Assembly: GCF_002007645.1 (NCBI RefSeq)
Contig: NZ_CP019791.1
Location: 1,550,001 to 1,614,000, forward strand
Origin: Anaerohalosphaera lusitana
GTDB lineage: Bacteria; Planctomycetota; Phycisphaerae; Sedimentisphaerales; Anaerohalosphaeraceae
Direction: 5' to 3'
DNA: 64,000 bases
Shown piece after piece: positions 3,157 through 48,408 of the stretch. A program made the translations under genes and the position numbers. A model generated the notes under the pieces. It was not told the DNA's origin. It searched no databases and saw only the letters and a program-made list of their open reading frames with translations. Position 1 is the first letter of the stretch, and each line of letters starts with the position of its first letter.

Positions 3157-5313
3157 ATGCAGAATTTGATGCGAATTCTTTTGTGCATGTGTTTGAGTCT
3201 GACAGCCGCAGTTTATGCTGTAGATACGGTTACTGTCAGCAATACGCCTACTTACAATTATGCTAACGGGATTTACGGTCAGTCATTTACCCCGTCAATT
3301 GGTGCCGATACGAGCCAGTTGACGCAAACCGTTCTGCTTCAAGAGTTCGTTTTAAGAGCTCCCGCCAGTCGACCTGAAGAACAATACGATGGGGCGGTTT
3401 ATCTAAATGTTTACGAAAATTACCAGGATGCTTCCAATTACGGTACCCTGACAGGTTCCAGCTCGAATACGGTCAATCCTCTGACGGTTGCGGGCGGGGA
3501 CTATATGTACTTCCAGTTCGACGTACTTGAGATGGACAAGGATACACAGTACGCTGTTGTGCTGTCGACCACTGCTGCGGCAGGTGATATCGTCAACAGC
3601 CGTCTGCAGGTTGCCACAGGCGATCCATATGCAGGCGGGCAGTGCATAAGTGTTTCCGGTGCTTCTGACTGGGAAGCCGAATTCATCGCCACGATGATCT
3701 CCGGTGACGTTGTCGTTCTCACGAATCATACCGATGGGGATACAAATGTTGTCGAAGCCGGACAGGGCGATACTTATGATCTCATGCTGGTCCAGGAAAT
3801 CACCTCAAATTTGACTGTAACAGTCACGCCGGATGCTCAACTCGATCTCGGCAGTGGTGCTGGACAGGCGATAAACGTGACTTTCATACCGGGAGGAGCC
3901 GAGTCAATATCAATAGATGTTGCTGCTGTTGACGATAGCGAGTCTGAAGGGCCGCACACGGGCACAATCCAGCATGATATCGCCGCCAGTGAGCCTGAGT
4001 TCGCTTCGTATCCTGTTGATCCGTTGACGGTTAATATAGAGGACAACGAACGATACTGCGGCGACGACTACACGACATTTCTTTCTGCCGATCTGAACCA
4101 GGACTGCTATGTTGACTTCAATGATTTTGCACTGGTTGCTTCAAATTGGCTGCAGTGCTCCGATCCGACTGATATCGAGTGTCTGCCTAATGTGCCGGGC
4201 CTTCCTCCGGTGCAGACGGATCTGTTTGTGGGTACAGGCATAGCGGGCGGGACAGAAGACAACCCCGCACACACTTATCGTATACCGGCAATGGAAACTA
4301 CAAGCACGGGTACGATCATTGCGGTCGCCGACGCACGCGTAAACAACAGCGGCGATCTGCCGGGCGCCATCGACGTAGCGATCAGGCGAAGCTTCGATAA
4401 CGGCAAGACATGGACACCGGTCAGAATAATCGTGGATTATCCCGGCAGTGAAGGCGCGGGAGATCCGTGCATCCTCGTGGACAAGCAGACCGATCCGGAT
4501 ACGATCTACATCTTCTACCTGTACGGTCCTGAGGGCATTGGTCTCTGGCAGTCTCAGCCAGGTCTTGATGGTCCCAGTACCTGTCAGATCCAGTACGTTA
4601 AAAGCACCGATGATGGTGATACATGGACCCAACCTGTAAATCTCAATCCGCAGGTCAAGAATCCCGACTGGGGCTGTGCGCTCGCTTCGCCGGGCAACGC
4701 TCTGCAGATGCGTGACGGAACACTCGTAGTGCCTGCGTACTATCGCAAGACCAACGGTGTTATGCAGTCCTACTTCTTCTACAGTGTGGACCACGGCCAG
4801 ACATGGCAGTACAGCAATGCCCCCGGCGAGCTGCAGAACAGCGCAAGCACGACCGAGTGTGCTATCGTCGAGCTCGAAGACGGCGGGCTGATACTCAACA
4901 TGAGAAACCATCGTGGTCAGGGTTCGCGTGCCATATCAAAAACGTATGATATGGGCCAGACATGGACGCCGATCGAGCACGATTTCGATCTGCCAGAGCC
5001 AGTCTGTCAGGCAGCCTTGATCCGCATGACCGATACTCGCGACGGCTACGAACGCAGCAGGGTCCTGTTCTCCAATCCGGCCAGCAGTTCCGGCAGGGTA
5101 AACATGAAGGTCAAACTGAGTTATGACGGTTGCGATACATGGCCCGTTGCAAAGCAGATACATGCAGGCAGTTCAGCCTATTCCTCGATGACAATTCTGG
5201 AAAACGGAAACATTGGTTTGTTGTACGAAGCCGACAGCTATTCGAAAATTGTCTTTGCTGAGATATCGCTTAAATGGCTGACTGACAATCAGGACTGGCT
5301 ACCGATCCAGTAA
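3157..5313 (+). CDS. Secreted sialidase (BNR/Asp-box, GH33-like) with internal dockerin-like repeat
   Basis: 718 residues from ATG 3157, which has AAGG 5-8 nt upstream; an in-frame TTG at 3121 is less likely. A signal peptide (ending V-Y-A-V-D) is followed by a beta-rich N-terminal region, a Calx-beta-like segment (around residues 180-290) and a dockerin-like repeat (about 305-335, DLNQDCYVDFNDFALVASNW). The C-terminal half is a six-bladed sialidase domain. It has the Arg-Ile-Pro motif (T-Y-R-I-P) and Asp-boxes such as S-F-D-N-G-K-T-W, S-T-D-D-G-D-T-W and S-V-D-H-G-Q-T-W. GH33 enzymes release terminal sialic acids from glycoconjugates. It shares module order and close sequence with the C-terminal half of the gene at 5361, so the pair looks duplicated. 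Confidence 0.88.
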   Translation: MQNLMRILLCMCLSLTAAVYAVDTVTVSNTPTYNYANGIYGQSFTPSIGADTSQLTQTVLLQEFVLRAPASRPEEQYDGAVYLNVYENYQDASNYGTLTGSSSNTVNPLTVAGGDYMYFQFDVLEMDKDTQYAVVLSTTAAAGDIVNSRLQVATGDPYAGGQCISVSGASDWEAEFIATMISGDVVVLTNHTDGDTNVVEAGQGDTYDLMLVQEITSNLTVTVTPDAQLDLGSGAGQAINVTFIPGGAESISIDVAAVDDSESEGPHTGTIQHDIAASEPEFASYPVDPLTVNIEDNERYCGDDYTTFLSADLNQDCYVDFNDFALVASNWLQCSDPTDIECLPNVPGLPPVQTDLFVGTGIAGGTEDNPAHTYRIPAMETTSTGTIIAVADARVNNSGDLPGAIDVAIRRSFDNGKTWTPVRIIVDYPGSEGAGDPCILVDKQTDPDTIYIFYLYGPEGIGLWQSQPGLDGPSTCQIQYVKSTDDGDTWTQPVNLNPQVKNPDWGCALASPGNALQMRDGTLVVPAYYRKTNGVMQSYFFYSVDHGQTWQYSNAPGELQNSASTTECAIVELEDGGLILNMRNHRGQGSRAISKTYDMGQTWTPIEHDFDLPEPVCQAALIRMTDTRDGYERSRVLFSNPASSSGRVNMKVKLSYDGCDTWPVAKQIHAGSSAYSSMTILENGNIGLLYEADSYSKIVFAEISLKWLTDNQDWLPIQ

Positions 5314-25971: not shown

Positions 25972-27351
25972 TTGCGGGCCAGGCGGTTGGAGAACAATAC
26001 AACAAACAGAATATTGCGTAGTTCGATCCTGGGTTGGATCGTAATCTGCTGTATGGGTGTCGCATCTCTTTGCCCGGCCGAATCGCCCGAAGACAATGCC
26101 CCTACAGGCGCCCTCCGAATCACTGGTAAGTTCGTTAGAAGTATAACACTTGAATCCGTTGGTACTGAAGAGGTTAACACCGACGGCACATTAGAAGTGC
26201 CCACCGGCAGCCACCAAATCCGTAAGATCACTCTCGAAAACGGCTGGACCGCTTATCCCTATCAGCTCGTGGACATCAAAGCGGGCCAAACCACCGACGT
26301 CAAACTCGGCGGTCCGCTAAAACAAAAGATAACCGCAAACCGGCAGGGCGGCTATCTCAATCTCGACCACTCCGTCGAAGGCGTCTGCGGAAAACAGTAC
26401 CGCAACGGCGACAACCCGCCTGCCTTCACCATCTACAAGGGCGATACAAAGGTCCACAGCGGCAAGTTCGCCTATGGGTGAGGCGGCACATGCAGGTACT
26501 CGTGGCGAGTACCCACCCAAGTCTACGGCGATCTCAAGATCGTCACCACAGCAGATCTAGGCGAAACAGGCGAAAATCAGGCCCAGACAACATTGAACTG
26601 GCCCCTTGTATCGCATTTCATAGGTTTGCTGCCGTGGCTTATACTGGCGGGGGCGTTTCTTGTTTTCAAGAAGAACAGGGACCTGCGTTCACTGTGGCTT
26701 TTGGTGCCGGTAGGTGTCGTTTTACTAGGCTGGAACCTGCTCAAAGCTCTGGCACATGTCCAGGGATCCGCAGGATCTTATTTTGATTCCCTTATGCAGA
26801 CAGCACTTATTTCGTATGCGTTATGGTGGCTGATTCTCCGGATGATAAGCAGGTTTCAGTCATTGACAGGCTTTCTGCTATTTTTATTTACTGCTTTAAT
26901 TGTTACCGCCTGCAATCTGAGCGGCGACTTATTCACTTTCATGCAAATGGGCATCACGACGACGTTCTTAGGACTTATTTTCTGGTCGTCTCATGCAATC
27001 GCGCGACTCATCTGCCGCAAATATCCTACCAGACTGAAATTCGCCCTCACCTTGGCAGTTTCTCTGCTCGTCATCAGTCTTTTATTGTGCGTTGCCTACT
27101 ACACCTTGTTGATGTCCAGGTTCATGGGCTTCAGATTTGACATATTACTTGGCACATTTATGGTATCTCTTGTGGTCTCAGGCATTCTGTTCGGCGGCAT
27201 CCTGCCCTTCCTTCTCATCGCCTTTTTCACGGACTTCTATTACACCCGCTTCAAAGAATTTCTAGGCGTGGAGGATAAAACATACGTCGAGCTGGCCGAA
27301 ACCCAGGCTCCCGACAAAACAGAACCCGCCCAGAAATGGGTCGATCTATAA
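25972..27351 (+). CDS. Membrane selenoprotein with in-frame UGA (Sec near residue 170), new family
   Basis: The frame runs from a non-ATG start (TTG 25972 is my best guess; other TTGs are possible) through an in-frame UGA at 26479-26481 to a stop at 27351, about 459 residues. A hydrophobic signal segment (ILGWIVICCMGVASL) is followed by a beta-rich exported domain with the Sec motif F-A-Y-G-U-G-G-T-C, then S-W-R-V-P. Beyond it come seven or eight membrane helices (from about residue 215) and a charged tail. A hairpin matching two other genes in the window follows the UGA. The motif has Cys four residues after Sec, so a selenenylsulfide bond is possible. It shares only the Sec domain with the genes at 27391 and 36306. 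A conventional caller would report two unrelated fragments. Redox or metal chemistry outside the membrane is inferred; the function is unknown. Confidence 0.8.
26482..26512 (+). promoter_or_regulatory. Bacterial SECIS element (copy 1)
   Basis: Starting 15 nt after the UGA, GUACUC pairs with GAGUAC around the loop GUGGC (26502-26506). Spacing and loop are identical in copies at 28558, 37524 and, on the minus strand, 44780. Stem positions 2 and 3 covary between copies. Confidence 0.85.
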
Positions 27352-27390: not shown

Positions 27391-30252
27391 ATGAAAAAAC
27401 TGTTAATTTTGATGACGGCCTTGACGCTCACGGCCCTTGTTCCAGCCGCTGAACAGGGTGGCACAGGCGAGCGTTTCTGGCTTAACTATGTCAAGTCCAG
27501 GGCTGCACAGCGGCTGCCCGGCGTTCCTGGTGTTTATTCCAGCACCAACAAGGACAAGCCCGAAGACGTAAAACTTCCTCAACTGGAAAACGTTGACTGG
27601 TCCTTTAGAACGTGGAAGCCTGACCTGGTCGATACGGAAGTACTCGTCGCCGTTGCAGGGACCGGATCTGGCTTTACTCTTTATGTTGACAGCGACCAGG
27701 ACCGTGACCTTACAGACGAAGTCGCACATGAGTCCTGGCTGAACGAGTATTCATCCTGGTATTTCGGTCCCGCACAGGTCATCCTCGAAACTGCGAACGG
27801 CCCGGTTACCTATCATCTGAATATGCGTCTGAGTGCTGGCAATCGAAGTCGGCCGTACCTTTCATTAGTCACGGGCTGCTGGTACGAAGGAACCGTTGTC
27901 GTAAACGGCAAAGAGAAAAACTGCATGATCGTCGACGTGGACTCCAATGGTGTTTTCAATGATCTGAACCCCGGCGGCAGAAGCGACAGGATAGCCATCT
28001 TCGAAGACGGCACCGGCTCGCCGATCCCCTTGACGAAGTATGTCCAGGTCGACGGCGAACTCTATACACCGACGGTTGCCAGAGACGGCAGCTACATCGA
28101 GATCGCCCCGGCTCAAAACGTCCCGTACGGCTATCTGGAAGTATCCGACAACCTAAGCGAGATAATCATATCCGGGACCAATGGCTATTTCCAGCCGGAC
28201 CTGGGCAAGGAACGCAAACTAAAGATCCCGGCGGGCGATTACATCGTCTCGCGCTGGTACATAAGTGACAAGGACAAGACCGGCCGCGAGTGGAGGCTCG
28301 GCCGCTACTCGAGCCAGAAGTCGGTAACGGTTGCAGAAGATGAAACCTCCGAACTCAACATAAGCTCCGACATCTATGCCTTCCTCGAAGTCTCCAGAAA
28401 AGGAAACGGGTACACCTTCAACCGCAGCATGATAGGTGCCGACGGCAAGTCTGTCGACCTGCGTATGGGCACCGGCGGCTACCCGCCAACACCCAAACTC
28501 CGCTTCCGAGACGCCTCAGGAAATTATGACAAAACCTTCAGCCTGGAATATGGGTGAGGCGGCACATGTTCGCTCTCGTGGCGAGAGCCCAAAAACGTAA
28601 AACTACCGATCATAGTAACCATCGAATCAGATACAGGTCCCTTCGACCTGAAAACAAATCCGTACTGGATAAAGAGCGATAACCGCACGATGCCCTTTGC
28701 GGGCGAGCAGATCGCGGTCAACGACATTCTTGCAGGCGACAAGTCCCTGGGCGACGCTGCAGATGCGCTTATCGCGGGCACGGACCTCAAAGACAACGAC
28801 CTCGACGGGCTGAAGGAGCATTCCAAAGAATCCGAATCCATGTGGGCCAGCGATGACCCCGTAGACTCACTCACGTTTCAGCTTGAAAGCTCGCAGGAAC
28901 TTGAAACGGTTTTCGTCTACAACTACAACCATCCATACCTGACCGGGTCCGGCATAAAAACCGCTGACGTTCAGGTCTGGCAGGACGGTTCGTGGAAGAC
29001 CGTCAAGAAGGGCTTCGAACTCGAACCCGCCCAGGGTTCGGAAGATTATGACATGCCCTCGGTGATCGAACTCGAACCCGTCAAGACGGATAAGGTGCGT
29101 TTCGCAAACCTGATCACCTTCAATGACGCAGCACCAATCGGTCTCAGCGAAGTCGCCTTCTACAAGGTCCGCGGCCCCGAGGCGATCCTCATTTCGCCCG
29201 AGGACGACGCGAAACTTCGCGTTTCCGACAGCATAACCCTTTCCTGGGCTCCGGGCAGAAATGCCCAGCAGCACGAGATCCACATCGGCGACAGCCCGGA
29301 CACCCTCGAATCGATGGGCACGCTAGAGACCGAGTCCGCCATCGTCAACGGCCTGGAACGCGGCAAGAAGTACTACTGGCGAGTCGATTCAATCGACGAA
29401 CAGGACAACGCCCATGCCAGCAGAATCCGCAGCTTCCAGCTAGCCGGCGACATCGTCGGTCACTGGGTTTTCGACGGCCTTGAGGACGGCTTCGCCCCCG
29501 ACGCGGTCGGCGAACGCGATGCCGAACTATCAGGCAACGCATCCATTGCCCCTGATGCGGGCAAATACTGGAGCGCCCTAAAGCTCGACGGCAAAAGCAG
29601 TGCAAAGATCCTGCCGCTCAATCTTGAATCTGACGGCGTGACCATCACCGGCTGGATCAAAGCTACCGAAAAGCCCTCAGGCGTGACAGGTCTTATGATG
29701 ACCCGCGATGCGGGCACCGTCGCAGGCATAAACCTGCTCGGATCGGAATTACGCTATCACTGGGACCAGGGCAACTGGGACTGGGGTTCAGGCCTGGATA
29801 TACCCACTGGCCAGTGGACCTTCGTAGCACTTGTCGTCCAGCCGCAACAGGCCACGCTCTACATGCACGACGGCAATGAAATGCAGTCATCCGTCCACAT
29901 GGGCCCTCACTCCGCTGAGGAATTCTACGGCGACTTCGGTCTGGGCCTCGACCCCGGTCGAAACGATCGTTACTTTACAGGCCTTATGGACGATGTCCGC
30001 GTATACGACTACTCGCTCAAGCCCAACGAAGTCGAATCGGTTTGCAAGAACGAGTCCATGCCCTCAACCGGCGAACTCGCTGTCGTTGGCGTCGAACGTT
30101 CAAAGCTTGAACCTATGTCCGAGCAGGCCGGCGACACCGGAGAACAGTCAGCCGATGACAAAAACAACATGCTGCCCGTTCTCACCATCGTCGGCATCAT
30201 CGCCGGCATAGGCATCTTCAGCGCCTTCGTCAAACGAGGCAAATCCGACTAG
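27391..30252 (+). CDS. Exported selenoprotein with in-frame UGA (Sec389), discoidin-like, FN3-like and LamG modules, C-terminal anchor
   Basis: 953 residues when UGA 28555-28557 is read as Sec. Start ATG 27391 (GAAAGG upstream). A signal peptide (to about residue 20) is followed by beta-rich repeats that match the gene at 36306. The Sec motif is L-E-Y-G-U-G-G-T-C then S-W-R-E-P-K-N-V. After it come a discoidin-like region (about 480-600), an FN3-like segment ending Y-Y-W-R-V-D-S (about 600-665), a LamG-like domain (about 685-880) and a single membrane helix (about 925-945) before K-R-G-K-S-D. The protein is thus anchored with Sec outside the cytoplasm. It lies 39 nt after the previous selenoprotein, probably in the same operon. 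The second fragment (from 28690) stays in the same frame, arguing against a decayed gene. Confidence 0.85.
28558..28588 (+). promoter_or_regulatory. Bacterial SECIS element (copy 2)
   Basis: 14 nt after the UGA, GCUCUC/GAGAGC encloses GUGGC (28578-28582). Compared with copy 1, two stem positions changed on both sides at once (U-A to C-G and A-U to U-A), while the loop is unchanged. Confidence 0.87.
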
Positions 30253-36305: not shown

Positions 36306-37841
36306 ATGTCGAAACCCACAAAGTTGATGATGATCGCCATACTGGCCGCGACTTTAAGTGCACCGGCCTGGGCTGACTCCCGCGCGATTGACCTGAAGCC
36401 CGAAAAAATGACTTCCGCTCAGGGATTTCGCCCGGCATTTGTACGCCCCGAGCCCGCGCCCACGGAAGATCTCACGATCAATGCCGAATTTCAGGCGTCG
36501 GATCAGTTTTACTTTAATTTCACCTACGGCCCGGACGAAGATAAAATCTACTCGGCCGTACTTGACAAGCAGGGCGGTGCACGCGCAGGCGTGGGTCTGC
36601 TCTATATCGATCTCAACAACGATGAAATCCTCGATCCCGAAAAGGAGTGCATCACAGTCCTTGTCGGTGCAAGCTACGGCTCTCCTCCCGTTCATGTTCC
36701 CCTTTCAGGTTTCAAAGACGGCTCTACCCGTCATGTAGCGCTCGCCTTTAACAGTTCCAAAGTTCCTGATGGCGAATATGTCATCACGGCTCAGCTAACC
36801 TCCCTAACCCGTTTCGAGGGCACCACCGAATTCGCCGGCAAAAAAACCAAAATAGCCCTCTGTGACAACAACGGAAACGGCACATACAACGATATAAATA
36901 CACGTGACGTTGCGACCAGCAATGATGTTGTCCTTGTGGACACGGACTCCGACGGCTTCTTCAACATGTCCTTCGACAGCCCCGAAATGTTCGAACTCAA
37001 CCGCTATGTCAAGGTCCACTCCGATTGGTACAGCTTTGAGCCCTCGCCCGATGGTAAAACTCTTGACATCCAAACCGAAGATCCCGAAACAGGCATCGTT
37101 ATCGCCCCCGACAACATCGACTACCTCGAACTCCACTCACCCAACCAGGACCTCAAACTGACCTTCACTCCTAACAACCGGCATGTCGAGGCCCTCGCCG
37201 GTGAATACAATCTCGCTGAGGTACGCTTCGCCGCCAAAGACGATAACGGCCGCCAGTGGTTTGCCCGCGCATACGACACTTCAACACAGTCCCTGAATTT
37301 CGAGGTCAAACCCGACGAAAAGATAGAGCTGCCCGACCTGCTTCCCCTCAAAGTATCCGTAGAGCCGCAATTCAAATCCAATGGCAAAGAGATCGTCTTC
37401 GAGCCCCATACGACAACCGCCAACGGCCTGCAAATTTCGGTCTTCGGCGGCGACGTGCCTTCCGTGATCCTTAAGGACCCTGACGGAAAAATCCTCGCCA
37501 AACCAAAATTCGAATATGGGTGAGGCGGTCCCATCCCGTGCTCGTGGCGAGTACCAAAAAACATAAACGGCAAGGTCACCATCGAACCCAGCTTTGACAT
37601 GGGACCGTTCGAAGCAAAGGCCCAGTCCGTAAGCTTAACCATAACCGACGGCGTAGCAAAATTGTCCGACAGTGCTGATCAGGGCAGTAATAACGACGAG
37701 AATCTCGAACTGGCCGATGTCGATGAAACCGAAAAACCAAACTACGTTGTCATAATAGTCATCGGCACCATCCTGATCGTCTCAGCGGTCGTAATTCTCA
37801 CCAAAAACAGAAAGGGTAAGGGCAACCCGCCGACCGAATAA
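36306..37841 (+). CDS. Exported, C-terminally anchored selenoprotein with in-frame UGA (Sec406)
   Basis: 511 residues when UGA 37521-37523 is read as Sec. ATG 36306 has GGAG about 12 nt upstream. A signal peptide (to about residue 24, P-A-W-A) is followed by beta-rich repeats with acidic loops (DLNNDEILDPEKE, DTDSDGFFN) that align with the gene at 27391. The Sec motif is F-E-Y-G-U-G-G-P-I-P-C, then S-W-R-V-P-K-N-I, so the nearby Cys is at +6 instead of +4. After about 75 residues there is an acidic linker and one membrane helix (about 480-500) with a basic tail (K-N-R-K-G-K-G). The Sec domain therefore lies outside the membrane. Divergent selC and the following selD operon frame it. The function is unknown. 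Confidence 0.87.
37524..37554 (+). promoter_or_regulatory. Bacterial SECIS element (copy 3)
   Basis: GUGCUC/GAGUAC (one G-U pair) with loop GUGGC at 37544-37548, the stem starting 15 nt after the UGA as in the other copies. Confidence 0.86.
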
Positions 37842-37921: not shown

Positions 37922-39529
37922 TTATTCTGCCTTTCGCACCTGCTTATACATCATCATCGCAGGTGAGCCCCCGAACGAGACACCCATCCACGCCGCCTCG
38001 TCTATCTCCGCATCCGCAAATCCCATCTTTTTCGCTTTCGCAATATGCGTCCGCAGACATGGCTCACACCGCGTCGCCACCGACAACGCCAAGTTCATCG
38101 CCTGTTTTGTAAATGCATCCAGCCCGCCCGGTCGCGAGCTGCTCGCCAGAAATCGCATATAATCCGCCTCCGTCCCGCCGCCTTCCATCCCCCCAGCCTC
38201 AACACAACAGCACGCCTCCTCAAGGCCCTTAGCAGCTTTATTGATCTCCGCCTTCTCGGCCGGACCACCCTCAGCCGCCGCACGCTCCCCGTCCTTCTTA
38301 CCTGCACTCCCGCCAGCAACCGGCATACTCCGCGATCCATTCGTCTCAAGCCGCACCTGCCCTTTGCCTTCACCCACGACCCGTCCGATCACCGTCGCCC
38401 GCTCAACTCCCCGCTCCCGCAGCGCCGTGACAAACTCCTCTGCCTTGTCCGGCGGGATTGCCACCAAAAGCCCACCCGACGTCTGCGCATCAAAACACAT
38501 GTCGTGCATCTCCTCCGTCACACCCTCACCCGCTCGCACATGCCGCCCGCACGATTCCTTGTTACGCTCGATCGCCCCTGGCAGCATCCCCTCCGCCACA
38601 TAATCCAGCACCCCGTCAAAGAACGGCACCTTGTCCCAAACGACTTCCACATCGACTCCGCTCCGCAACGCCAGCTCCGACAGGTGCCCCATCAGGCTGA
38701 ACCCCGTCACATCCGTACACGCACTCGCTCCGAACTCCGTCATCAGCTCCGCCGCTGTCTTGTTCAACTGCGCCATCGACCGACCGATCGCCTCCACATG
38801 CTCCGCCTTCGCTCGCCCGATCTGCCCGGCAAACGCAACGATGCCCGTACCCAACGGCTTCGTCAGAATCAACACATCCCCCGCCTTCGCCGTTGAATTG
38901 CTCGCGATCCTCTCCGTCTCGATGATGCCCGTCACTGCGAACCCGGCCTTCACTTCCGGATCGTTAATGCTGTGCCCTCCGATCACCGCAACCCCAGCCT
39001 CGGCCATCTTGTCCATCCCACCGCGCAGCATCTCCGACATCGCCTTGTCCGCGATCTTCCGCACCGGAAATCCCAGCACCGACAACGCAGTCAAAGGCTT
39101 GCCGCCCATCGCATAAACATCGCTCACCGAATTTGCCGCCGCGATCTGCCCGAACAGATACGGATCGTCCACCGAAGGCGTAAACACATCCACCGTCTGC
39201 ACCAGCGCACGCCCGTCCCCCAGGTCATACACCCCAGCGTCATCCCCAGCCGGAAATCCGATCAGCACATTCGGATCATCGACCGCAGGCAGCCCCTTCA
39301 GCACCTCCTTCAAAAACGCCTGATCAATCTTCGACGCACAGCCCGGCTTCTCGATCAGCTCCGTCAGCCGTACAGGCCCCGTCGGTCCGTCCAGCCGCTC
39401 GCCCGCACACAGACAAACGTTCTTCTCCTTGAACAGATCGCATGGGCAGGGCTTCTTAGGATCGCAAACACAATGCCCCAGTCGAATCGACCGCTGCATA
39501 ACCCGTTTTCTTCTTTCCATATTTATCAT
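37922..39529 (-). CDS. selD: Selenophosphate synthetase fused to Cys-rich N-terminus and AhpD-like (CMD) domain
   Basis: 535 residues from ATG 39529, behind AAGGAA that overlaps the end of the upstream gene. Residues 1-45 are an unusual cysteine-rich extension (H-C-V-C-D, K-P-C-P-C-D, N-V-C-L-C-A-G-E). The SelD/AIR-synthetase core follows, with the active-site Cys and Lys in K-P-G-C-A-S-K-I, then GFPAGDDAGVYDLGDGRALV, AVIGGHSIND and CTDVTGFSLMGHLSELA. After a Gly/Ala/Glu-rich linker, the last 85 residues are a carboxymuconolactone-decarboxylase/AhpD-like domain with C-E-P-C-L-R-T-H. SelD makes selenophosphate from selenide and ATP for selenocysteine synthesis. The AhpD-like CxxC could reduce or deliver selenium to the synthetase, which is inference. 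It is last in a six-gene minus-strand operon. Confidence 0.93.
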   Translation of the reverse strand: MINMERRKRVMQRSIRLGHCVCDPKKPCPCDLFKEKNVCLCAGERLDGPTGPVRLTELIEKPGCASKIDQAFLKEVLKGLPAVDDPNVLIGFPAGDDAGVYDLGDGRALVQTVDVFTPSVDDPYLFGQIAAANSVSDVYAMGGKPLTALSVLGFPVRKIADKAMSEMLRGGMDKMAEAGVAVIGGHSINDPEVKAGFAVTGIIETERIASNSTAKAGDVLILTKPLGTGIVAFAGQIGRAKAEHVEAIGRSMAQLNKTAAELMTEFGASACTDVTGFSLMGHLSELALRSGVDVEVVWDKVPFFDGVLDYVAEGMLPGAIERNKESCGRHVRAGEGVTEEMHDMCFDAQTSGGLLVAIPPDKAEEFVTALRERGVERATVIGRVVGEGKGQVRLETNGSRSMPVAGGSAGKKDGERAAAEGGPAEKAEINKAAKGLEEACCCVEAGGMEGGGTEADYMRFLASSSRPGGLDAFTKQAMNLALSVATRCEPCLRTHIAKAKKMGFADAEIDEAAWMGVSFGGSPAMMMYKQVRKAE

Positions 39530-39530
39530 C

Positions 39531-40334
39531 TTAGTTCCTTCCACCGATCTTGTTGATATTTCTCACACGCCTCGCCGCCAGCAGCGCCGCTCCCATCGCC
39601 CCCGTCTTCTGCGGCGAAGAACACACTCGCACTTCCGCACCGACCGCATCCTCGAGCGTCTCCCTCATTCCCGGTATCATCGCGACCCCGCCCGTAAACG
39701 TCACACCTCCACCGTTCACCGGCCCGCTCATCGCCGCGATCCGCTCTGCGATCGAAAACTGCACCCCCGCGATAATGTCACTCGTCTCAACCCCCTCCGC
39801 CATCAATCCCACGATCTCCGTCTCCGCGAAAACCACGCACATACTGCTTATTGCCGCCGGACTGCGGCTCTTGCTCGCCAGCTCCCCCAGCCTCTCTATA
39901 GGCACCTCCGTCCGATTTGCAACCAGCTCCAGAAACCGCCCCGTACCTGCCGCACATCGGTCATTCATGCTGAAATCATAAACCGTCCCGTCAGCCTCCA
40001 GGTGTATTACCTTGCTGTCCTGCCCGCCGATATCGATGATAACGCTCGTCTCCGGCAAATGATACGTCACGCCTGCCGCATGACACGTTATCTCCGTGAT
40101 CGTCTTGTCCGCAAAATCAAGCATCCCCCGCCCATACCCCGTAGCAACCGTATATGCAATGTCGTCCATCCCGATCCCGCTCTCCTCCGCGATCCGCTCC
40201 AGCAGCAGCCTCGCAAGACGCTTCTGTTCGATCCCCTGATCGACCACCCCCTCACCCAGCACCACCATCCGCTCAGCATCCAGCAGCACCGCCTTTATCG
40301 TCCTCGATCCTGCATCAATTCCCGCACATATCAT
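39531..40334 (-). CDS. BadF/BadG/HgdC-type ATPase, activator of 2-hydroxyacyl-CoA dehydratase-like enzyme
   Basis: 267 residues. An actin-fold ATPase: GIDAGSRTIKAVLLD at the start and IDIGGQDSKVIHL as the second phosphate loop. The bridging [4Fe-4S] ligands are Cys in N-D-R-C-A-A-G-T-G-R-F and S-S-M-C-V-V-F-A-E-T-E. These activators use ATP hydrolysis to push an electron at very low potential into a partner iron-sulfur protein. The partners are encoded directly upstream. Its stop precedes the selD start by one base, so selD translation is coupled. Confidence 0.92.
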   Translation of the reverse strand: MICAGIDAGSRTIKAVLLDAERMVVLGEGVVDQGIEQKRLARLLLERIAEESGIGMDDIAYTVATGYGRGMLDFADKTITEITCHAAGVTYHLPETSVIIDIGGQDSKVIHLEADGTVYDFSMNDRCAAGTGRFLELVANRTEVPIERLGELASKSRSPAAISSMCVVFAETEIVGLMAEGVETSDIIAGVQFSIAERIAAMSGPVNGGGVTFTGGVAMIPGMRETLEDAVGAEVRVCSSPQKTGAMGAALLAARRVRNINKIGGRN

Positions 40335-41710
40335 ATTTGTTTTACGCTCCCAACTGTTTCCACCAGCGCCTCGATCCGAGTCCGTAAACTTTCATGATCC
40401 GCGTCGATCACCGACGGCACCTCGATCTCCAGCACTTTCAAACTCGTTCGTCTTTTCAATTCATCTCGTATTATCGTTCCCTCCATCGCGCAATGACTCG
40501 CCCCCGGCACTCGCGACACAATCACAGCTCCCGCCCCGAACTCTTCCGCATCCCGCGCGATCCTCTCAGCTCTCTGACCGCTAGACCCAACCATCGGATC
40601 CGCCATCGCCGCCCGCGCCAGCGCCTCCATCGGCTCTACGTCCTCACTGATCGCATCGATCGCATGCGTAAACAGATAATCCGTCCCGCAAAGCCTCGCC
40701 CCACAATCCTCCAGCAGATTCATCACCCGCAGATCGGCAGGGGGATTCACCCAGAACACCTTCACCGCCGACGCATCCAGCACTCCCGCTCCTCTCGCAG
40801 CTCGTTTCCTCACCAGCTCCAACAGTCCCTCCAGCACCCGCACACACATGTTCCTGTCCGAACAGTAATGTATCGCCAGCATCTCCGCCACCAGCATCTC
40901 AACCGCGCCCAGCGGACAAACTTCCGCCCCGAAAACCACCCTCCTCAATTCCCGCAGCAACCCACGCACTCTGTTCGCTTCCCGGATACTCTTCGCCAGC
41001 TCCTCCTCGTCCAGCTTCCGTCCAGCGGCCCCCTCCAGCATGCCAAGAACACCCTCCAACTGTCCCCTGACAAAATCCACCTGCTCCCGCGCAGCCCTCA
41101 CCCCGCCGGGCAAACTCATCGCATCTTCCCTTTTTTCGACCTCCCGCCTGTAAGGGACCTCCCACCAATGTATCGCAAATCCCAAACCCTCAAGCCGCTG
41201 CGCTATCACCGAAAAGTCATCGCACACCGCCCCCGCACTGCACGTCAGTACATCAGGCCGCGGAAAATGCTTTCCGTTCACAAACGCCCCCAGCATCGCC
41301 CGCACCGGGCAGAACGACTCATCCATACCCAGCGAATCCGCGATTTTCAAAAGCCCCGCACTCATCTGCATTACGCACGGCGTCCACCACGCACCGTCCG
41401 GATAGAACGCGACCATCTCGTCGAACGCATACGCCAGCACCGGTACTGTCCCCAGATCCTTCATCGCCCCTACGATTATCTTCCCCTCATCCCTGTGCCG
41501 CGCGAGCCGCTCTTCCTCGCTCAACAGCATGTTCCACAGCCGCAGCGCCTCAACCGAATTGTCAAACTCCAGCTTACCCAGCCTTCTGTCCCCATCCTCA
41601 AAATAATACCCAAGCCTCCGCACCTCCCCCGCATCGATCACGCCGCTCGCGCAAAGCCGTTCATACCTCTGCTTCCATTCCCCAAGCGAAATTTTCCTCG
41701 GCCCATCCAT
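40331..41710 (-). CDS. 2-hydroxyacyl-CoA dehydratase D-like (HgdB-like) protein
   Basis: 459 residues from ATG 41710, which overlaps the preceding stop (TAATG). Family traits are a Rossmann-like start (KIIVGAMKDLGTVPVLAYAFDEM), C-P-V-R-A-M-L-G-A-F, the Cys region TCSAGAVCDD and the last lobe GAGAVIVSRVPGASHCAMEG. It differs from the classical substrate-bearing subunits in that several expected cluster Cys positions vary, so it may be a diverged partner. It would accept low-potential electrons from the ATPase at 39531. The substrate is unknown. Its position in the selD operon suggests a selenium-related reduction. Confidence 0.78.
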   Translation of the reverse strand: MDGPRKISLGEWKQRYERLCASGVIDAGEVRRLGYYFEDGDRRLGKLEFDNSVEALRLWNMLLSEEERLARHRDEGKIIVGAMKDLGTVPVLAYAFDEMVAFYPDGAWWTPCVMQMSAGLLKIADSLGMDESFCPVRAMLGAFVNGKHFPRPDVLTCSAGAVCDDFSVIAQRLEGLGFAIHWWEVPYRREVEKREDAMSLPGGVRAAREQVDFVRGQLEGVLGMLEGAAGRKLDEEELAKSIREANRVRGLLRELRRVVFGAEVCPLGAVEMLVAEMLAIHYCSDRNMCVRVLEGLLELVRKRAARGAGVLDASAVKVFWVNPPADLRVMNLLEDCGARLCGTDYLFTHAIDAISEDVEPMEALARAAMADPMVGSSGQRAERIARDAEEFGAGAVIVSRVPGASHCAMEGTIIRDELKRRTSLKVLEIEVPSVIDADHESLRTRIEALVETVGSVKQI

Positions 41711-42555
41711 TAACTCAACATCTCCCCAAACGCATTCAACCTCGTCACAGTATTCGCCGACGCATAACTCCCAGCCTCGTTTATCTCCAGATCGATAACC
41801 GCCACTCCTGCTGCCTCCTTTATCCGCCCGAGCTCACCGTGCCACAGATCGCACCACGTATACCGATGCAGGATAAGCCCGTCCACAGCTCCCGAGCCGC
41901 TCCACTCCCTAAGCCACTCGTACCATCCCGCGTTCGATCTCTGCCGAATGTCCAGCACCTCTACAAAATACTTCCTCACCAACCCGTCCATATCACTTTC
42001 GCAACCTCCGAACTCGCCCAACCGCACGGGCCCCATCATATCCACCAGCCGAGCCCCCGCGATCTCACCTAACATCAATCCCTCCGCCGCAATAGGCGCC
42101 CCGATCACCCCCAGCACCAGCTCTCCGCTCCCATCCTCGAACCTCGTCCGCTGTTCATCCCTGCCATCCTCCAAAACTTCATCGTCATTGGTGCTATCTT
42201 TTAGTTCCTTCAGAAACCGCTCCAGCCTCTCAACCTCCGCACCGAACATCCCCTGCGAAGCCGTTCCCCTCGTTACCGGCACGTTCAGCACGAACATCTC
42301 CCCGCCGAACTCATCCCTCATCGCCTCAAAACAACGTCGCACCTGGTCGCACGTACCCGCCCCCACAAACGCGTCCAGATCATCCCTCCCCAACAGACTC
42401 GCAACCGTTCCAGCCGCATACGGACACATTCCCTCTCTCAGCCTCAAGCACTCCGCACCGCCCGCCATGCTGGGCCTTACGAATTTCGCCTCATGCCCCG
42501 CCGCCTCGATTAGTTCGACCGGCACATACCCCGATGTATAACCAACCACCGCCAA
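41710..42555 (-). CDS. Short HgdB-like protein
   Basis: About 281 residues. I chose TTG 42555 with GGAGGG 8 nt upstream and a 1-nt gap to the upstream stop; longer forms would run deep into that gene. It starts A-V-V-G-Y-T-S-G-Y-V-P-V-E-L-I-E-A-A-G, a typical start of 2-hydroxyacyl-CoA dehydratase D proteins, and has C-P-Y-A-A-G and G-A-G-T-C-D-Q-V-R-R-C. It ends with a cysteine near H-R-Y-T-W-C-D-L-W. It is much shorter than full-length family members (about 380-430). It probably forms a complex with the products on both sides. Confidence 0.72.
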   Translation of the reverse strand: MAVVGYTSGYVPVELIEAAGHEAKFVRPSMAGGAECLRLREGMCPYAAGTVASLLGRDDLDAFVGAGTCDQVRRCFEAMRDEFGGEMFVLNVPVTRGTASQGMFGAEVERLERFLKELKDSTNDDEVLEDGRDEQRTRFEDGSGELVLGVIGAPIAAEGLMLGEIAGARLVDMMGPVRLGEFGGCESDMDGLVRKYFVEVLDIRQRSNAGWYEWLREWSGSGAVDGLILHRYTWCDLWHGELGRIKEAAGVAVIDLEINEAGSYASANTVTRLNAFGEMLS

Positions 42556-42556
42556 G

Positions 42557-43780
42557 CTAATTACCCTCCACCATCTCGAACATCGCCTCCAGTCGAACCG
42601 CGATCCTTGCAGCATCAGAAGGCGAATAATCCGTCTCGATCTTCAAATAAGGCAGACCAAGCTCACCCTCCGCGAGCTCCTTCACCAGCCGCGACTCCAC
42701 ATCGTAAGTCAGACACGCCTGCCACACCAGGTCTACCACGCAATCCGCCCGGTATTGCTTTGCAAGCCGCTCTATCGACTCCAGCCTGCCCGCATTAGGC
42801 GTCATAACCGAACATGGCAGATGCAGGTACTTAGCCGCGATCGCCTCTATCGCGTCCTCCGCCTCCTCGTCCACGTCCTCCAGTATCGGCTTGACCCCTG
42901 TGCAGTTCTCCATGCACACCACGACCCCGCCAGCCTCCTCTATAAGCTTCACCACCTTCTCCGCCCCATGCACCGTCGGCACCCCCGTCAGCAGCACCCG
43001 CACACGATTCTCGCCAACGCTCCCAGCCGCGCCGCTGCCGTAATACTCCGCCGCCTCCTCATACTTTACAAGGTCGGCCTCTATACCCGAAATAGTACTT
43101 TTCATCGCCAGTACCTCGCTCCCGCTCAAAGGCGGATCCTCCGCTTCCATCAACTCTGCGATCCTCCGCCGCAGCCTTCGCTCCCTGTTCATCACCCGCA
43201 CTGCCTCCCACAGCTTCTCATCCGTGATCTCCACCCCCAGCTTTTCCCCAAGCCGATCCCGCAGTTTCACCACCTCAGCCGTCCACCGCGCCAAAGCTCC
43301 CTCTTCGCCCGGCTTCTGCACCAGCTCCAGCACGATCATATCCTTCTTCCTCGCCATCAGCTCATACATCTTCTTCTTGCCGTCACACGTTGTCTCCGCC
43401 ACCACCACATCCGCCATCTTCAGAAACAAATTCGACCCGTCCATTACATATCCGTACGTCGACTTGATCAGCGGACACAGATTCGCCGGCAGCTCCCTAT
43501 GCGCCTCCACCGCTTTCTCCGCACTCCCCCCGCAAAGACAGACCGGAAGCGCACCCGCCGCCATGATCACCTCCCTCGGCGTATACTCGCACATGATCCC
43601 GACGATCCCGCGCCCGCTCTCCTTCGCCGCAGTCGCATACTCATAACAGTTCGAGATCATATTCTCAAAATGCCCTAAAGGCCCGCTCGCACCGCCGCAA
43701 CCATCATCAGCACCGCAACCACCGCTCCGCTCATCCTGACCGTTTCCGCCTCCAGCACCGCATCCGCAATTCGTACTCAT
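42557..43780 (-). CDS. Double-cubane-type cluster protein (YjiM/HgdB family) with Cys/Gly-rich N-terminal extension
   Basis: 407 residues from ATG 43780, 10 nt after the previous stop. A Cys/Gly-rich tail of about 33 residues (NCGCGAGGG and GGCGADDGCGG) precedes the family core. The core has G-I-M-C-E-Y-T-P-R-E, N-L-C-P-L-I-K-S-T-Y-G, T-T-C-D-G-K-K-K-M-Y-E and E-N-C-T-G-V-K-P, positions that ligate the double-cubane cluster in characterised relatives. Such proteins reduce small molecules after activation by a BadF-type ATPase. The ATPase is encoded in the same operon. The N-terminal extension resembles a metal or selenium handling segment; this is inference. Confidence 0.85.
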   Translation of the reverse strand: MSTNCGCGAGGGNGQDERSGGCGADDGCGGASGPLGHFENMISNCYEYATAAKESGRGIVGIMCEYTPREVIMAAGALPVCLCGGSAEKAVEAHRELPANLCPLIKSTYGYVMDGSNLFLKMADVVVAETTCDGKKKMYELMARKKDMIVLELVQKPGEEGALARWTAEVVKLRDRLGEKLGVEITDEKLWEAVRVMNRERRLRRRIAELMEAEDPPLSGSEVLAMKSTISGIEADLVKYEEAAEYYGSGAAGSVGENRVRVLLTGVPTVHGAEKVVKLIEEAGGVVVCMENCTGVKPILEDVDEEAEDAIEAIAAKYLHLPCSVMTPNAGRLESIERLAKQYRADCVVDLVWQACLTYDVESRLVKELAEGELGLPYLKIETDYSPSDAARIAVRLEAMFEMVEGN

Positions 43781-43790
43781 ATTCGTACCT

Positions 43791-44597
43791 CTAACCCTTC
43801 TTCTTCGCAACGAACAACGCCTGACATATCTTTCCAGCCTTCGCCATATCCCGCAGAAAACACATCTCTTCCGCAACCGCCCCCAGCGCATCCATATCGA
43901 ATCCCAGTATCTTCAGCGCATCATACATATACTGCCTCCGCACCGAGTCTATATACAGATCACAGCACCCCGCAAATCGCCCCGTATCCTCCGCGATCTC
44001 GACCTCGCACCCCGTCGCCTCCAGCAACCCCGCATACCCGTCGACATCCTGCACATTCGCAAACTTCATGAACCGCAAAAATCTCTCCGCCTCATTCTCA
44101 TTCATCGCGACCGCTCCCTCCACCCAGTCCGTAAACGCGATTTCCCCCCCGTCCCGCACCAGCCGAACCGCCTCCACGATCAGTGTATCCTTATCCTTCA
44201 CATAGCACCATGCATCCTCACCCCACACAAAATCGTACATTCCATCTGCCAGCCCCGTCGCACACGCATCCGCATGCACGAACTCCAGCCTCTCCGCAAG
44301 TCCTTCCTGATGTGCCCGCTCCCTCGCCTCGGCTACCATCATTTCCGTCACATCTATCCCGACCATCGACTCCACCCCGCACATCCGCACCAGAAATTTC
44401 ATCCCCGCACCCGTACAGCAGCAAAGATCCACACCGCGCGACCCCGCCTGGATCCCCGCCTTCTCCGCCAGCTCCATCGAAGATTCCAGCCCGCCGACAT
44501 GGATCTGCTCACCCATCAGCAATTCCCACAGCCGCATCTCCGCACCGCTGTAAACCTCCTGTACATCCTCGACCGAAATCTCCTCATTGCACTTCAT
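43791..44597 (-). CDS. SAM-dependent methyltransferase, class I
   Basis: 268 residues from ATG 44597 with GGAG 7 nt upstream; an in-frame ATG at 44678 lies inside a terminator and is not used. SAM-binding motif I is V-D-L-C-C-C-T-G-A-G-M-K-F-L, followed by V-G-I-D-V-T and FVHADACATGLADGMYDFVWGEDAWCYV. Many cysteines (C-C-C-T-G, G-C-C-D-L-Y) recall methyltransferases acting on metalloids. It leads the operon that ends with selD. Methylation of selenium (making volatile or exportable species) or of a cofactor is possible. The substrate is not readable from sequence. Confidence 0.82.
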   Translation of the reverse strand: MKCNEEISVEDVQEVYSGAEMRLWELLMGEQIHVGGLESSMELAEKAGIQAGSRGVDLCCCTGAGMKFLVRMCGVESMVGIDVTEMMVAEARERAHQEGLAERLEFVHADACATGLADGMYDFVWGEDAWCYVKDKDTLIVEAVRLVRDGGEIAFTDWVEGAVAMNENEAERFLRFMKFANVQDVDGYAGLLEATGCEVEIAEDTGRFAGCCDLYIDSVRRQYMYDALKILGFDMDALGAVAEEMCFLRDMAKAGKICQALFVAKKKG

Positions 44598-44649
44598 TGC
44601 GATTCTCCAAAAAACGAGCATTCCAAATAATTCCAACTCATAGATGCAC

Positions 44650-44694
44650 AAAAAAAGCAGGCGAAGAGCATTTATCAAAATAGCTCTCGCCTGC
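44650..44694 (-). terminator. Intrinsic terminator before the methyltransferase-selD operon
   Basis: On the minus strand, GCAGGCG-AGAGC and GCTCT-CGCCTGC (one bulge, 13-nt loop) are followed by TTTTTTT. It lies between the selenopeptide stop (44736) and the methyltransferase start (44597). I see no clear promoter between it and that gene. Confidence 0.85.
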
Positions 44695-44735
44695 CGATAA
44701 CCGTGGCGTCAAAACTCGATTTTCACTTCCCTCAT

Positions 44736-44858
44736 TCACAACGGCATGGTAGTCGCCTTATGCCGAACAGGGATCGAGGGCGCCCGCCACGAGCACCGGC
44801 AGACCGCACCTCACCCGTACTCCAGTTCGAAATCAATTATAAACAAATATTGATCCAT
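44736..44858 (-). CDS. Short selenopeptide/leader with in-frame UGA (Sec16)
   Basis: 40 codons from ATG 44858. The UGA (44813-44811) is in the same context as in the three large selenoproteins: L-E-Y-G-U-G-A-V-C-R-C, then S-W-R-A-P. The SECIS hairpin follows at the same distance. The peptide ends at a second UGA (44738-44736) with no hairpin. No strong RBS is visible before the ATG. The frame stays open upstream to about 44936, so a longer form with a GTG start is possible. There is no signal peptide. It is separated from the methyltransferase-selD operon by a terminator, so a role as a selenium-sensing leader is inferred. A small redox peptide or a relic of a larger gene is the alternative. 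Confidence 0.7.
44780..44810 (-). promoter_or_regulatory. Bacterial SECIS element (copy 4)
   Basis: GUGCUC pairs with GGGCGC (two G-U pairs) around GUGGC (44790-44786), 14 nt after the UGA. The loop-spanning sequence CGUGGCG (44791-44785) is exactly complementary to CGCCACG at 44708-44702 on the same transcript. Confidence 0.8.
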
Positions 44859-44942: not shown

Positions 44943-44971
44943 AGTCTAACCCGCACAAATTCGCTTCGCAA
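44943..44971 (-). promoter_or_regulatory. Candidate promoter of selenopeptide and selD operon
   Basis: On the minus strand TTGCGA, 17-nt spacer, TAGACT. It lies inside inverted repeats (44937-44945 with 44979-44987, and 44952-44959 with 44985-44992). It is moderately convincing. Confidence 0.45.
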
Positions 44972-45034: not shown

Positions 45035-45082
45035 AGCACTCGTTCCGACTCATAAGCCGACTTTTACGTGCGAGAACTGCCC

Positions 45083-46492
45083 ATGTCAAATACAGACAAA
45101 CAAACGCTCCTGCGAAATATCCCCTCCGTCAGCGCCGTCCTCGAACAGCTAAAGCACCAGATCGACACCCAGCCGACCCTGCTCCACTCCGACATCACCC
45201 GCGCCTGCCTCGACGACCTCCGCAGTCGGATCCTCGCAGGCAACGGCTTCGAACCGCCTGCCGATCTGCCGCAATATGTGCTCGATCAGGTAACCGACCG
45301 CATCACCCAGCTTAACGGCATATATCACGCCCGCGTCGTCAACGCCGCAGGCATCGTCCTCCACACGGGCCTCGGCAGGGCGGTCGTCCCCAAACCCGCA
45401 CTCGACCACCTCACCTCCGACCTCGCCGGCTACTCGCTCCTTCAGCTCTCAACCGACACCGGCAAACGCTCCCGTCGTGACGCACGTATCGAACAGCTCC
45501 TGCAAACCCTCACTGGCGCTCCCGCCGCAACCGTCGTCAACAACAACGCCGCCGCAACCTCAATCGTCCTCAACACCATCGCCAAAGATAAAGAAGTCAT
45601 TGTCTCCCGAGGCCAGCTCGTCGAGATCGGCGGCTCGTTCCGCCTTCCGGATGTGATGGCCTTCAGCGGCGCAAAGCTCGTCGAGGTCGGCACCACCAAC
45701 AAAACCCACCCCCGCGACTACCTCAGCGCCATCACCGAAAACACCGCCGCCATCCTCCGCGTCCACCCCAGCAATTACAAGGTCCAGGGCTTCAGCTCCG
45801 AGGTCCCCCTCGACGAGCTCGTCGACATCGCCCACTGCAACGATCTGCTCATGTTCGACGACGTAGGCGCAGGCTCACTCTTAGACTTCACCCGCTACGG
45901 CTTTGACCACGAACCTACGCTCGTCGAATCCGTCAACGCCGGAGCAGACGTCATTACCTCGTCAGGCGACAAGCTCATCGGCGCCTCCCAGGCAGGCATC
46001 ATCCTCGGCAAACCCGACATCATCACCGCCATCCGCAAAAACCAGTTCGCCCGCATCCTCCGCGTCGACAAAATGACCCTCACTGTCCTCGAACAGACCC
46101 TCAAGCTCTTCCTCGACCAGGAAAATGCTCTCAAAACCGTCCCCACCCTCCGCATGATGCTCCGCAAACCCGATTCCATCCGTCGCCAGGCAAACCGCAT
46201 AAAACGCAAGCTCGCCGCTGCCTGCCCCAACGCACAGCTTGCCATCACAAAGGGCCACTCCCAGCCCGGCTCAGGCTCGCTGCCCGCCCAGTCCATGCCC
46301 ACCAGCCTCGTAACCGTTACCGCACCCAACTACAGCGCCGACCAGCTCGCACGCAAACTCCGCAAATACAAAACACCCGTCTTCGTCCGCATCCAGAACG
46401 AACAGGTCCTCATCGACCCCCGAACTCTCCTCGACGGTGACGAAAAAACGTTAATACAAGCCCTAACCTGGGCCCTGAGTACGAAAGAATAA
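45083..46492 (+). CDS. selA: L-seryl-tRNA(Sec) selenium transferase
   Basis: 469 residues from ATG 45083; GTG 45068 is an alternative. It has the SelA N-terminal domain (LLRNIPSVSAVLEQ) and the core INAAG-type motif VVNAAGIVLHTGLGRAVV. The PLP lysine is in TSSGDKLIGASQAGII, with GAGSLLDF before it. It converts serine on tRNA-Sec to selenocysteine using selenophosphate. The stop is 2 nt before the selB start, so the two are one operon. Codon use is strongly C-ending here, unlike the accessory region after 53 kb. Confidence 0.97.
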   Translation: MSNTDKQTLLRNIPSVSAVLEQLKHQIDTQPTLLHSDITRACLDDLRSRILAGNGFEPPADLPQYVLDQVTDRITQLNGIYHARVVNAAGIVLHTGLGRAVVPKPALDHLTSDLAGYSLLQLSTDTGKRSRRDARIEQLLQTLTGAPAATVVNNNAAATSIVLNTIAKDKEVIVSRGQLVEIGGSFRLPDVMAFSGAKLVEVGTTNKTHPRDYLSAITENTAAILRVHPSNYKVQGFSSEVPLDELVDIAHCNDLLMFDDVGAGSLLDFTRYGFDHEPTLVESVNAGADVITSSGDKLIGASQAGIILGKPDIITAIRKNQFARILRVDKMTLTVLEQTLKLFLDQENALKTVPTLRMMLRKPDSIRRQANRIKRKLAAACPNAQLAITKGHSQPGSGSLPAQSMPTSLVTVTAPNYSADQLARKLRKYKTPVFVRIQNEQVLIDPRTLLDGDEKTLIQALTWALSTKE

Positions 46493-46494: not shown

Positions 46495-48408
46495 ATGTCA
46501 TCCAGCCAGATAAACATAACTCTCGGCACCGCCGGCCACATCGACCACGGCAAGACCGCACTTATCAAACTCCTCACAGGCTGCGAAACCGACCGCCTCA
46601 AAGCCGAAAAGGATCGCGGAATGTCCATAGAACTCGGCTTCGCTCCCTGCACCATCTCCGACCTCGAAGTCGGCATCGTCGACGTACCGGGCCACGAAAA
46701 CTTCATCAAAACAATGGTCGCAGGCGCCACCGGCATCGACGCGGTCATTTTCGTCATCGCAGCCGATGACGGCGTCATGCCCCAGACCCGCGAACACCTC
46801 GACATCCTCACCATCCTCGGCGTCTCCCACGGCATCATCGCCCTCACCAAGGTCGACACCGTCGACGACGAACTCCGCGACCTCGTCGCTGACGACGTCC
46901 GCAATTTCATCACCGGCACCTTCCTCGAAAACGCTCCCATCCTCCCTGTCTCCTCCATTACCGGCCAGGGCTTTGATGCTTTTTACGGATCCCTCCGCGA
47001 AATGGTCTCCCGCGTCACCCCCAAACCCTCCGACGGCATCTTCCGCGTACCCGTCGAAAACGTCTTCTCCGTCAAGGGCTACGGCTCTGTCATTACCGGC
47101 ATTCCCGTCGCGGGCTCCGCCTCTATCGGCGACGAACTCATCATCCTCCCGCAAGACGAAACAGGCCGCATCAAAGCCGCCCAGGTCTACTCCAAACCCG
47201 CCCAAAAGGCACAGACGGGCCAGTGCGCCGCGATTAACGTTCCGCAGTGGGACTACAAAGCCATATCACGAGGCGACGTCGCCACTGTTCCCGGCTATTT
47301 CGAACCCGCCCACTTCTATCTCGCAAAAATGTCCCTCATCCCCCATGTAGGCCACAAACTCAAGACCGGCTCACAGCTCAAGCTCCACACCGGCACCAGT
47401 GAACACACCGCAAAAATATACCTCATGGAAGACAACACCCTCCAGCCCGGTACTGAAACCCTCGTCCAGTTCCGCCTCGACACACCTCTCGTCGCAGGCC
47501 CCCGCGATCCCTTCATCGTCCGCTCGCTCACTCCGCCCCGGACCATCGGAGGCGGCACCATCCTAAAACCCCTCACCCGCAGACTCAAACGCAGCAAACC
47601 CGCCGTCCTCGAAAATGCCCGCTCACTCGCCCGCGCGATCGAAAACGACAAAACTTTCGTCTTCTATACCGTAAATGATTCGCCGAACCACACCGCGACC
47701 ACCGAGGACATCGCCCGCACAGTCAAGCTCCGGCCCCAAACCGTCACCGCCATCACCGACCATCTCGTCTCCACAGGCGACCTCATCCGTACCGCCGACA
47801 ACACATACATGGCCGCCGAAACCGAATCCATCTTGCGAAGCAACCTCCTCGATACGCTGAAAACCTATCACGCCGAAAACCCCCAAAGTCCCGGCATGAC
47901 GTTCGACGACCTCCGCAACGCCGTCGACCTCGACCCCTCACTATTCAAATTCATGATCAGCAGGCTGACAGACGCAGGCAGGATCGAACATCGCAAAGGC
48001 AGGGCGGCCCTGTCCACGCATAAGGTGCAATTTGACACCGCCCAGGCCGATCTTATGAACACCATCGAAACCATCTTTCTAGATCGCCTCTTCAACCCGC
48101 CCGGCACAGACGAACTCCTCCGCACAACAAAAGCCAACACCCGCGACCTCACCCAGGCCCTCAACACCCTCGCCCAGCACAAAAAGCTCGTCCGCATAGA
48201 CTCGAAGATCACCTTTCACACCGCTGCCGTTGAAAAGGCAAAAGAACTCCTCATCGCGGACCTCCAGGAAAACGGCCGATTCGAAAGCGTCCGCTTCAAG
48301 TACCTCCTCGACACCTCGCGCAAATACGCTCTGCCCCTGCTCGACTTCTTCGACGACATAGGCCTGACCCGCCGCGACGGCAACACCCGCTACCTCAAAA
48401 ATGGCTGA
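46495..48408 (+). CDS. selB: Selenocysteine-specific elongation factor
   Basis: 637 residues. The G domain has GTAGHIDHGKT, DRGMSIELGF, DVPGHENF and LTKVD. EF-Tu-like domains 2 and 3 follow, then C-terminal winged-helix domains (about residues 380-637) that bind the SECIS hairpin. It brings Sec-tRNA to UGA codons next to a SECIS. Its natural targets would be the four UGA/hairpin sites in this window. It is co-transcribed with selA. Confidence 0.97.
   Translation: MSSSQINITLGTAGHIDHGKTALIKLLTGCETDRLKAEKDRGMSIELGFAPCTISDLEVGIVDVPGHENFIKTMVAGATGIDAVIFVIAADDGVMPQTREHLDILTILGVSHGIIALTKVDTVDDELRDLVADDVRNFITGTFLENAPILPVSSITGQGFDAFYGSLREMVSRVTPKPSDGIFRVPVENVFSVKGYGSVITGIPVAGSASIGDELIILPQDETGRIKAAQVYSKPAQKAQTGQCAAINVPQWDYKAISRGDVATVPGYFEPAHFYLAKMSLIPHVGHKLKTGSQLKLHTGTSEHTAKIYLMEDNTLQPGTETLVQFRLDTPLVAGPRDPFIVRSLTPPRTIGGGTILKPLTRRLKRSKPAVLENARSLARAIENDKTFVFYTVNDSPNHTATTEDIARTVKLRPQTVTAITDHLVSTGDLIRTADNTYMAAETESILRSNLLDTLKTYHAENPQSPGMTFDDLRNAVDLDPSLFKFMISRLTDAGRIEHRKGRAALSTHKVQFDTAQADLMNTIETIFLDRLFNPPGTDELLRTTKANTRDLTQALNTLAQHKKLVRIDSKITFHTAAVEKAKELLIADLQENGRFESVRFKYLLDTSRKYALPLLDFFDDIGLTRRDGNTRYLKNG

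Follow-up and report, generated by a model that had tools for sequence, protein, structure and literature searches.

A putative selenocysteine-responsive transcription attenuator upstream of selD operons in planctomycete bacteria

In the planctomycete Anaerohalosphaera lusitana, a short selenopeptide reading frame and an intrinsic terminator stand before an operon that ends in selD. This raises the question of whether decoding of selenocysteine (Sec) could decide whether transcription continues into the operon. A first-pass annotation made from the sequence alone had proposed such an attenuator on the basis of a perfect seven-base complementarity between a sequence downstream of the selenopeptide (CGCCACG, 44708-44702) and the loop region of the SECIS (CGTGGCG, 44791-44785). 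We examined this locus within a 64,000-nucleotide stretch of the genome (GCF_002007645.1, NZ_CP019791.1, positions 1,550,001 to 1,614,000; referred to here as the window) and in related genomes. The comparative evidence supports a selenium-linked transcription attenuator of the selD operon. Its anatomy is well supported, while the effector and the polarity of the response are inferred.

Anatomy of the leader

The leader and the genes around it are arranged as follows, with coordinates given in the window.

44943-44971, minus strand, possible leader promoter (TTGCGA, 17 nt, TAGACT; 8 of 12 matches)
44736-44858, minus strand, leader selenopeptide ORF (ATG at 44858, UGA as Sec, second UGA as stop at 44738-44736), start codon uncertain
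44811-44813, minus strand, in-frame UGA, inferred to be read as selenocysteine
44779-44799, minus strand, SECIS-like hairpin CCGGTGCTCGTGGCGGGCGCC
44785-44803, minus strand, SECIS 5' arm and loop that pair with the anti-SECIS (18-pair helix, 44803-44786)
44690-44708, minus strand, anti-SECIS or antiterminator strand CGCCACGGTTATCGGCAGG
44657-44695, minus strand, intrinsic terminator hairpin, whose first six nt (44695-44690) are shared with the anti-SECIS
44650-44656, minus strand, U-tract of the terminator (seven T)
43794-44597, minus strand, class I methyltransferase, first gene of the controlled operon
42557-43891, minus strand, double-cubane-cluster anaerobic reductase (HGD-D family)
40331-42615, minus strand, two further HGD-D family proteins
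39531-40334, minus strand, BcrAD/BadFG-type activator ATPase
37922-39544, minus strand, SelD fused to an AhpD/CMD-like domain
45068-46492, plus strand, selA, divergent
46495-48408, plus strand, selB, divergent

The seven-base match was confirmed, but the complementarity is larger than the first-pass annotation had recognized. SECIS nucleotides 44803-44786 pair at 17 of 18 positions with 44707-44690, and the 3' part of the anti-SECIS is the terminator's own 5' arm. The anti-SECIS is therefore an antiterminator that competes with both the SECIS hairpin and the terminator. A chance match was rejected, as 0 of 500 dinucleotide shuffles of the pre-terminator stretch reached the duplex energy of the window. 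The terminator folds far better than shuffled sequences (z = -4.2, 0 of 200 shuffles as stable). No T-box or other Rfam match was found in the leader, where no family reached an E value of 5, and no direct tRNA specifier was seen.

The UGA is preceded by 44 open codons in its frame, and the encoded peptide carries the same YGUGxxCxxSWRxP motif as full-length selenoproteins of the window. selA, selB, selD, and tRNA-Sec (36113-36023) are all found in the window. The reductase at 42557-43891 matches NCBIfam NF040772 above its cutoff as well as Pfam HGD-D. No sigma-70-like site was found between the terminator and the methyltransferase ATG (44597). In seven relatives that gap is only 17 to 34 nt, which is too short for an ordinary promoter downstream of the terminator. 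The possible leader promoter was read by eye and falls below the cutoff of the promoter scan, so its assignment is inference only.

Occurrence of the leader in relatives

Orthologs of the methyltransferase were searched in relatives (45 of 59 genomes hit at an E value of 0.001, of which eight, including the window's, are full-length orthologs by score), in the order (38 of 161 genomes at 1e-25), in the class (37 of 397), and in named genomes (80 loci kept of 240). Among 56 distinct methyltransferase loci, 15 have a UGA-SECIS 151 to 245 nt upstream plus a T-run before the ATG, and others have the same leader further upstream with genes in between. The leader motif is [YF]G-UGA-nine bases-TGCCGGTnCTCGTGGCGAG in most. 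In locus L062 (loci are numbered L in this study) the spacing is one base shorter, so that the peptide after Sec changes frame while the RNA motif stays. In other selenoprotein genes the SECIS upper stem shows a paired change (CTC/GAG to CAC/GTG), in line with a real hairpin. A phylum-wide pattern search gave hits in 65 of 392 genomes, most at two mismatches and not resembling this motif by eye, and yielded two further attenuators (L232 and L233).

The first count of SECIS-plus-terminator instances was 38. Four were left out before scoring: L052, L057 at 749, L065 at 14660, and L083 at 233, the last being a second UGA before the same SECIS. The first three have z scores of 0.2, 0.1, and -0.8. 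L156 was added by hand, giving 35 loci for the shuffling test. For pairing in register, L062, L146, and L156 were left out and L054 was added, giving 33 loci, and five of seven loci found later (not L255 or L259) brought the total to 38. Folding analyses used 32 loci.

Pairing between the SECIS and the anti-SECIS

The SECIS of each of the 35 loci was hybridized in silico to the stretch before the terminator and compared with 500 dinucleotide shuffles. In 22 loci no shuffle was as good, in 28 at most five were, and the mean z score was -4.1. In contrast, the mean z score was -0.16 for 46 SECIS copies without a detected terminator, and the single low one, L054, is a further attenuator whose terminator had been missed. 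Of six further instances, two had 0 of 500 shuffles as good, three had 5 to 8 of 500, and one had 160 of 500.

The 38 loci come from several planctomycete families and comprise 34 distinct combinations. In one register, 191 of 204 cells are paired within the terminator stem and 329 of 408 (81%) outside it, against 18 to 54% outside the stem in 18 shifted registers. The 30 distinct 12-base upstream halves of the anti-SECIS differ at 5.5 positions on average, so pairing is kept while the sequence turns over. Cognate covariation could not be shown, however. Shuffling the anti-SECIS partners gave 496 paired cells on average against 494 observed, because the SECIS side is nearly invariant, and pairing conservation is therefore one-sided evidence. 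This is the weak point of the case.

These data bear on the possibility that the hairpin is an ordinary end-of-gene terminator and that the complementarity is a by-product of shared terminator sequence or descent. In many loci the UGA does lie in a full-length selenoprotein gene of about 180 to 230 codons that ends just before the terminator. However, pairing outside the stem reaches 81% in one register only and survives sequence turnover, and it is absent from two SECIS-plus-terminator loci not followed by selenium genes (L052 and L255) and from SECIS copies without a terminator. The terminator stands 17 to 62 nt before the next ATG in 17 loci measured, so an independent promoter after it is unlikely. 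In the window and in loci L061 and L115, moreover, the upstream selenoprotein gene is reduced to a short ORF, yet the UGA, SECIS, anti-SECIS, and terminator persist. We consider this explanation very unlikely and infer that the attenuator arose from the end of a selenoprotein gene.

Predicted order of events

The antiterminator takes 4 to 6 nt from the base of the terminator, next to the U-tract, in 32 of 32 loci. In transcripts ending just past the anti-SECIS, the predicted probability of the antiterminator is above 0.5 in 32 of 32 loci (mean, 0.96), while at full length it is above 0.5 in 13 of 32 (mean, 0.38). This is the order of events expected of a kinetic switch. At full length the terminator state is more stable in most loci (by 4.9 kcal/mol on average), although the window is an exception in which the antiterminator is better by 1.1 kcal/mol, so the switch must be kinetic. 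Folding also predicts that the antiterminator is lost if the SECIS is held. On these predictions, the nascent RNA prefers antitermination unless something holds the SECIS.

The anti-SECIS could instead act in translation, lowering selenocysteine insertion by melting the SECIS, with the overlap with the terminator being incidental. The helix would indeed abolish the SECIS hairpin, and in L062 a 14-base near-complement of the UGA-proximal arm lies before the terminator without overlapping it. Nevertheless, the helix overlaps the base of the terminator in every locus folded and was seen only before selenium operons, which makes this reading improbable.

Model for selenium-dependent termination

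SelB binds SECIS elements quickly and with nanomolar affinity and is thought to load before the ribosome arrives (PMC4513850). We favor a model, to which we assign a probability of roughly three in four, in which the SECIS doubles as one strand of the antiterminator. If the nascent SECIS is free, the anti-SECIS pairs with its 5' arm and loop, opening the hairpin and tying up the base of the terminator's 5' arm, so that transcription continues into the selenium-acquisition and selD operon. If the SECIS is held as a hairpin by SelB-GTP-Sec-tRNA, or is occupied by a ribosome that has decoded the UGA, the anti-SECIS cannot invade, the terminator forms, and the operon is off. The result would be negative feedback on selenocysteine supply. 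SelB as the effector and the polarity of the switch are inferences made without expression data.

The first-pass annotation had suggested that UGA decoding could set the outcome. In classical ribosome-mediated attenuation, ribosome position would decide and SelB would matter only through decoding. The UGA lies in an ORF with selA, selB, selC, and selD present, and a ribosome at the UGA would leave the SECIS exposed. In most of the loci folded the stop codon lies 12 to 16 nt before the anti-SECIS, about the front edge of a terminating ribosome. However, the predicted antiterminator probability is about the same for naked RNA (0.96) and with a ribosome at the UGA (0.98), and it stays high with one at the stop codon (0.90). 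The UGA-to-stop distance also varies from 45 to 138 nt. SelB-Sec-tRNA holding the SECIS is thus at least as likely a sensor as the ribosome, and a purely ribosome-based decision remains possible but is not favored. The stronger proposal that SelB-GTP-selenocysteyl-tRNA parked on a nascent SECIS directly blocks the antiterminator without need of a ribosome, and that this is used across planctomycetes to control selenium uptake, methyl-transfer, and selD operons, is about as likely as not.

Opposite polarity was also considered, in which a ribosome that reads through the UGA melts the SECIS and frees it for the anti-SECIS, so that selenocysteine insertion switches the operon on. A translating ribosome unwinds the SECIS (PMC13188914), and an operon dedicated to using selenium could be selenium induced. 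However, the SECIS refolds after the ribosome passes (PMC13188914), folding favors the antiterminator with no ribosome at all, and uptake genes behind the same leader fit derepression under shortage. We regard this polarity as unlikely.

Relationship to known control systems

Reviews of prokaryotic selenium biology name LysR_Se/HrsM and nested tRNA genes as control systems but no attenuator (PMC9312934, PMC13188914, PMC8124441). None of the titles or abstracts found in open-access PubMed Central, preprints not included, describes a selenocysteine attenuator or SECIS antiterminator (papers consulted also include PMC5322559, PMC8659212, and PMC2432076). The nearest precedent appears to be the E. 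coli selAB leader, in which SelB bound to a SECIS-like hairpin regulates selenium genes (Thanbichler and Boeck 2002, cited for SelB autoregulation in PMC8124441). That control is probably translational, on selAB, with no terminator, while here a UGA-SECIS with anti-SECIS and terminator precedes selD-type operons. Attenuators of the trp/his type likewise appear to combine a codon for the end product in a short ORF with mutually exclusive antiterminator and terminator before a biosynthetic operon. Here the codon is UGA read as Sec, sensing would need a SECIS and SelB, the antiterminator strand is the SECIS itself, and long versions use a full selenoprotein gene as leader. As is probably the case in the protein-binding attenuators of TRAP, PyrR, and LicT/SacY, a protein holding one RNA structure would set the choice, but the proposed protein is a translation factor carrying charged tRNA and its target is a recoding element inside a coding sequence. 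What would be new is attenuation that senses the 21st amino acid, with one RNA element serving both recoding and transcription control. It would also make a selenium regulon predictable from sequence and link unassigned genes to selenium supply.

Genes behind the leader

All 38 leaders with the helix stand before selenium-type genes, although some contigs end before selD is reached, and for L059 and L054 only an ATPase-like and an AhpD-like first gene, respectively, are in view. The first gene varies. It can be that of the methyltransferase operon itself, or an NMT1-type binding protein and ABC transporter, or a DUF3034 porin-like, outer-membrane-like protein, each followed by the same operon. 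The transporter genes lie between the attenuator and the methyltransferase operon in L164, L165, L134, and L069 and are a candidate selenium-compound importer. In L232, L233, and L258, from other families, a corrinoid protein and two URO-D/MtaA-like proteins replace the methyltransferase/HGD-D block between attenuator and selD (L232 ends before selD). In L256 and L257 the leader directly precedes selD. selA and selB lie divergent upstream where enough sequence was available.

Five SECIS-plus-terminator leaders lack a register-0 helix. L062 (family f3) and L146 (Verrucomicrobia) precede methyltransferase operons with SelD further down, and L156 (a Phycisphaerales metagenome-assembled genome, MAG) precedes a methyltransferase operon in which no SelD was found within 9 kb. 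L259, before SelD, could not be scored properly, and L255 has no selenium gene that we could find. Four other methyltransferase loci (L163, L168, L174, and L179) have a selenoprotein frame upstream with no T-rich terminator close by. In L168, a very long G+C-rich inverted repeat resembling a mobile repeat lies between the selenoprotein stop and the methyltransferase ATG at 3667. L127 (at 261) and L182 (at 7891), from two genomes of one genus, carry an ultrashort selenopeptide (MEYGUVFSISRSW or a variant, then UGA inside the SECIS loop) just before the methyltransferase, without a T-rich terminator. By eye, their pre-ATG sequence resembles a short anti-SECIS over the ribosome-binding site, which would imply another mode, perhaps a translational version.

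In the window, the segment at 37922-43891 (minus strand) encodes the double-cubane-cluster reductase, the two further HGD-D proteins, the activator ATPase, and the SelD fusion, and it is conserved near a methyltransferase in loci labelled as several phyla. It is possibly a route that demethylates or reduces selenium compounds for SelD. Three full-length selenoproteins of the window, at 26053-27351 (plus strand, UGA 26479), 27412-30252 (plus strand, UGA 28555), and 36306-37841 (plus strand, UGA 37521), share FxYGUGGxxxxSWRxP or a close variant with the leader peptide. None matches a Pfam or NCBIfam selenoprotein family, and related genomes carry many copies in clusters (for example, genome G088), so these are probably an undescribed selenoprotein family.
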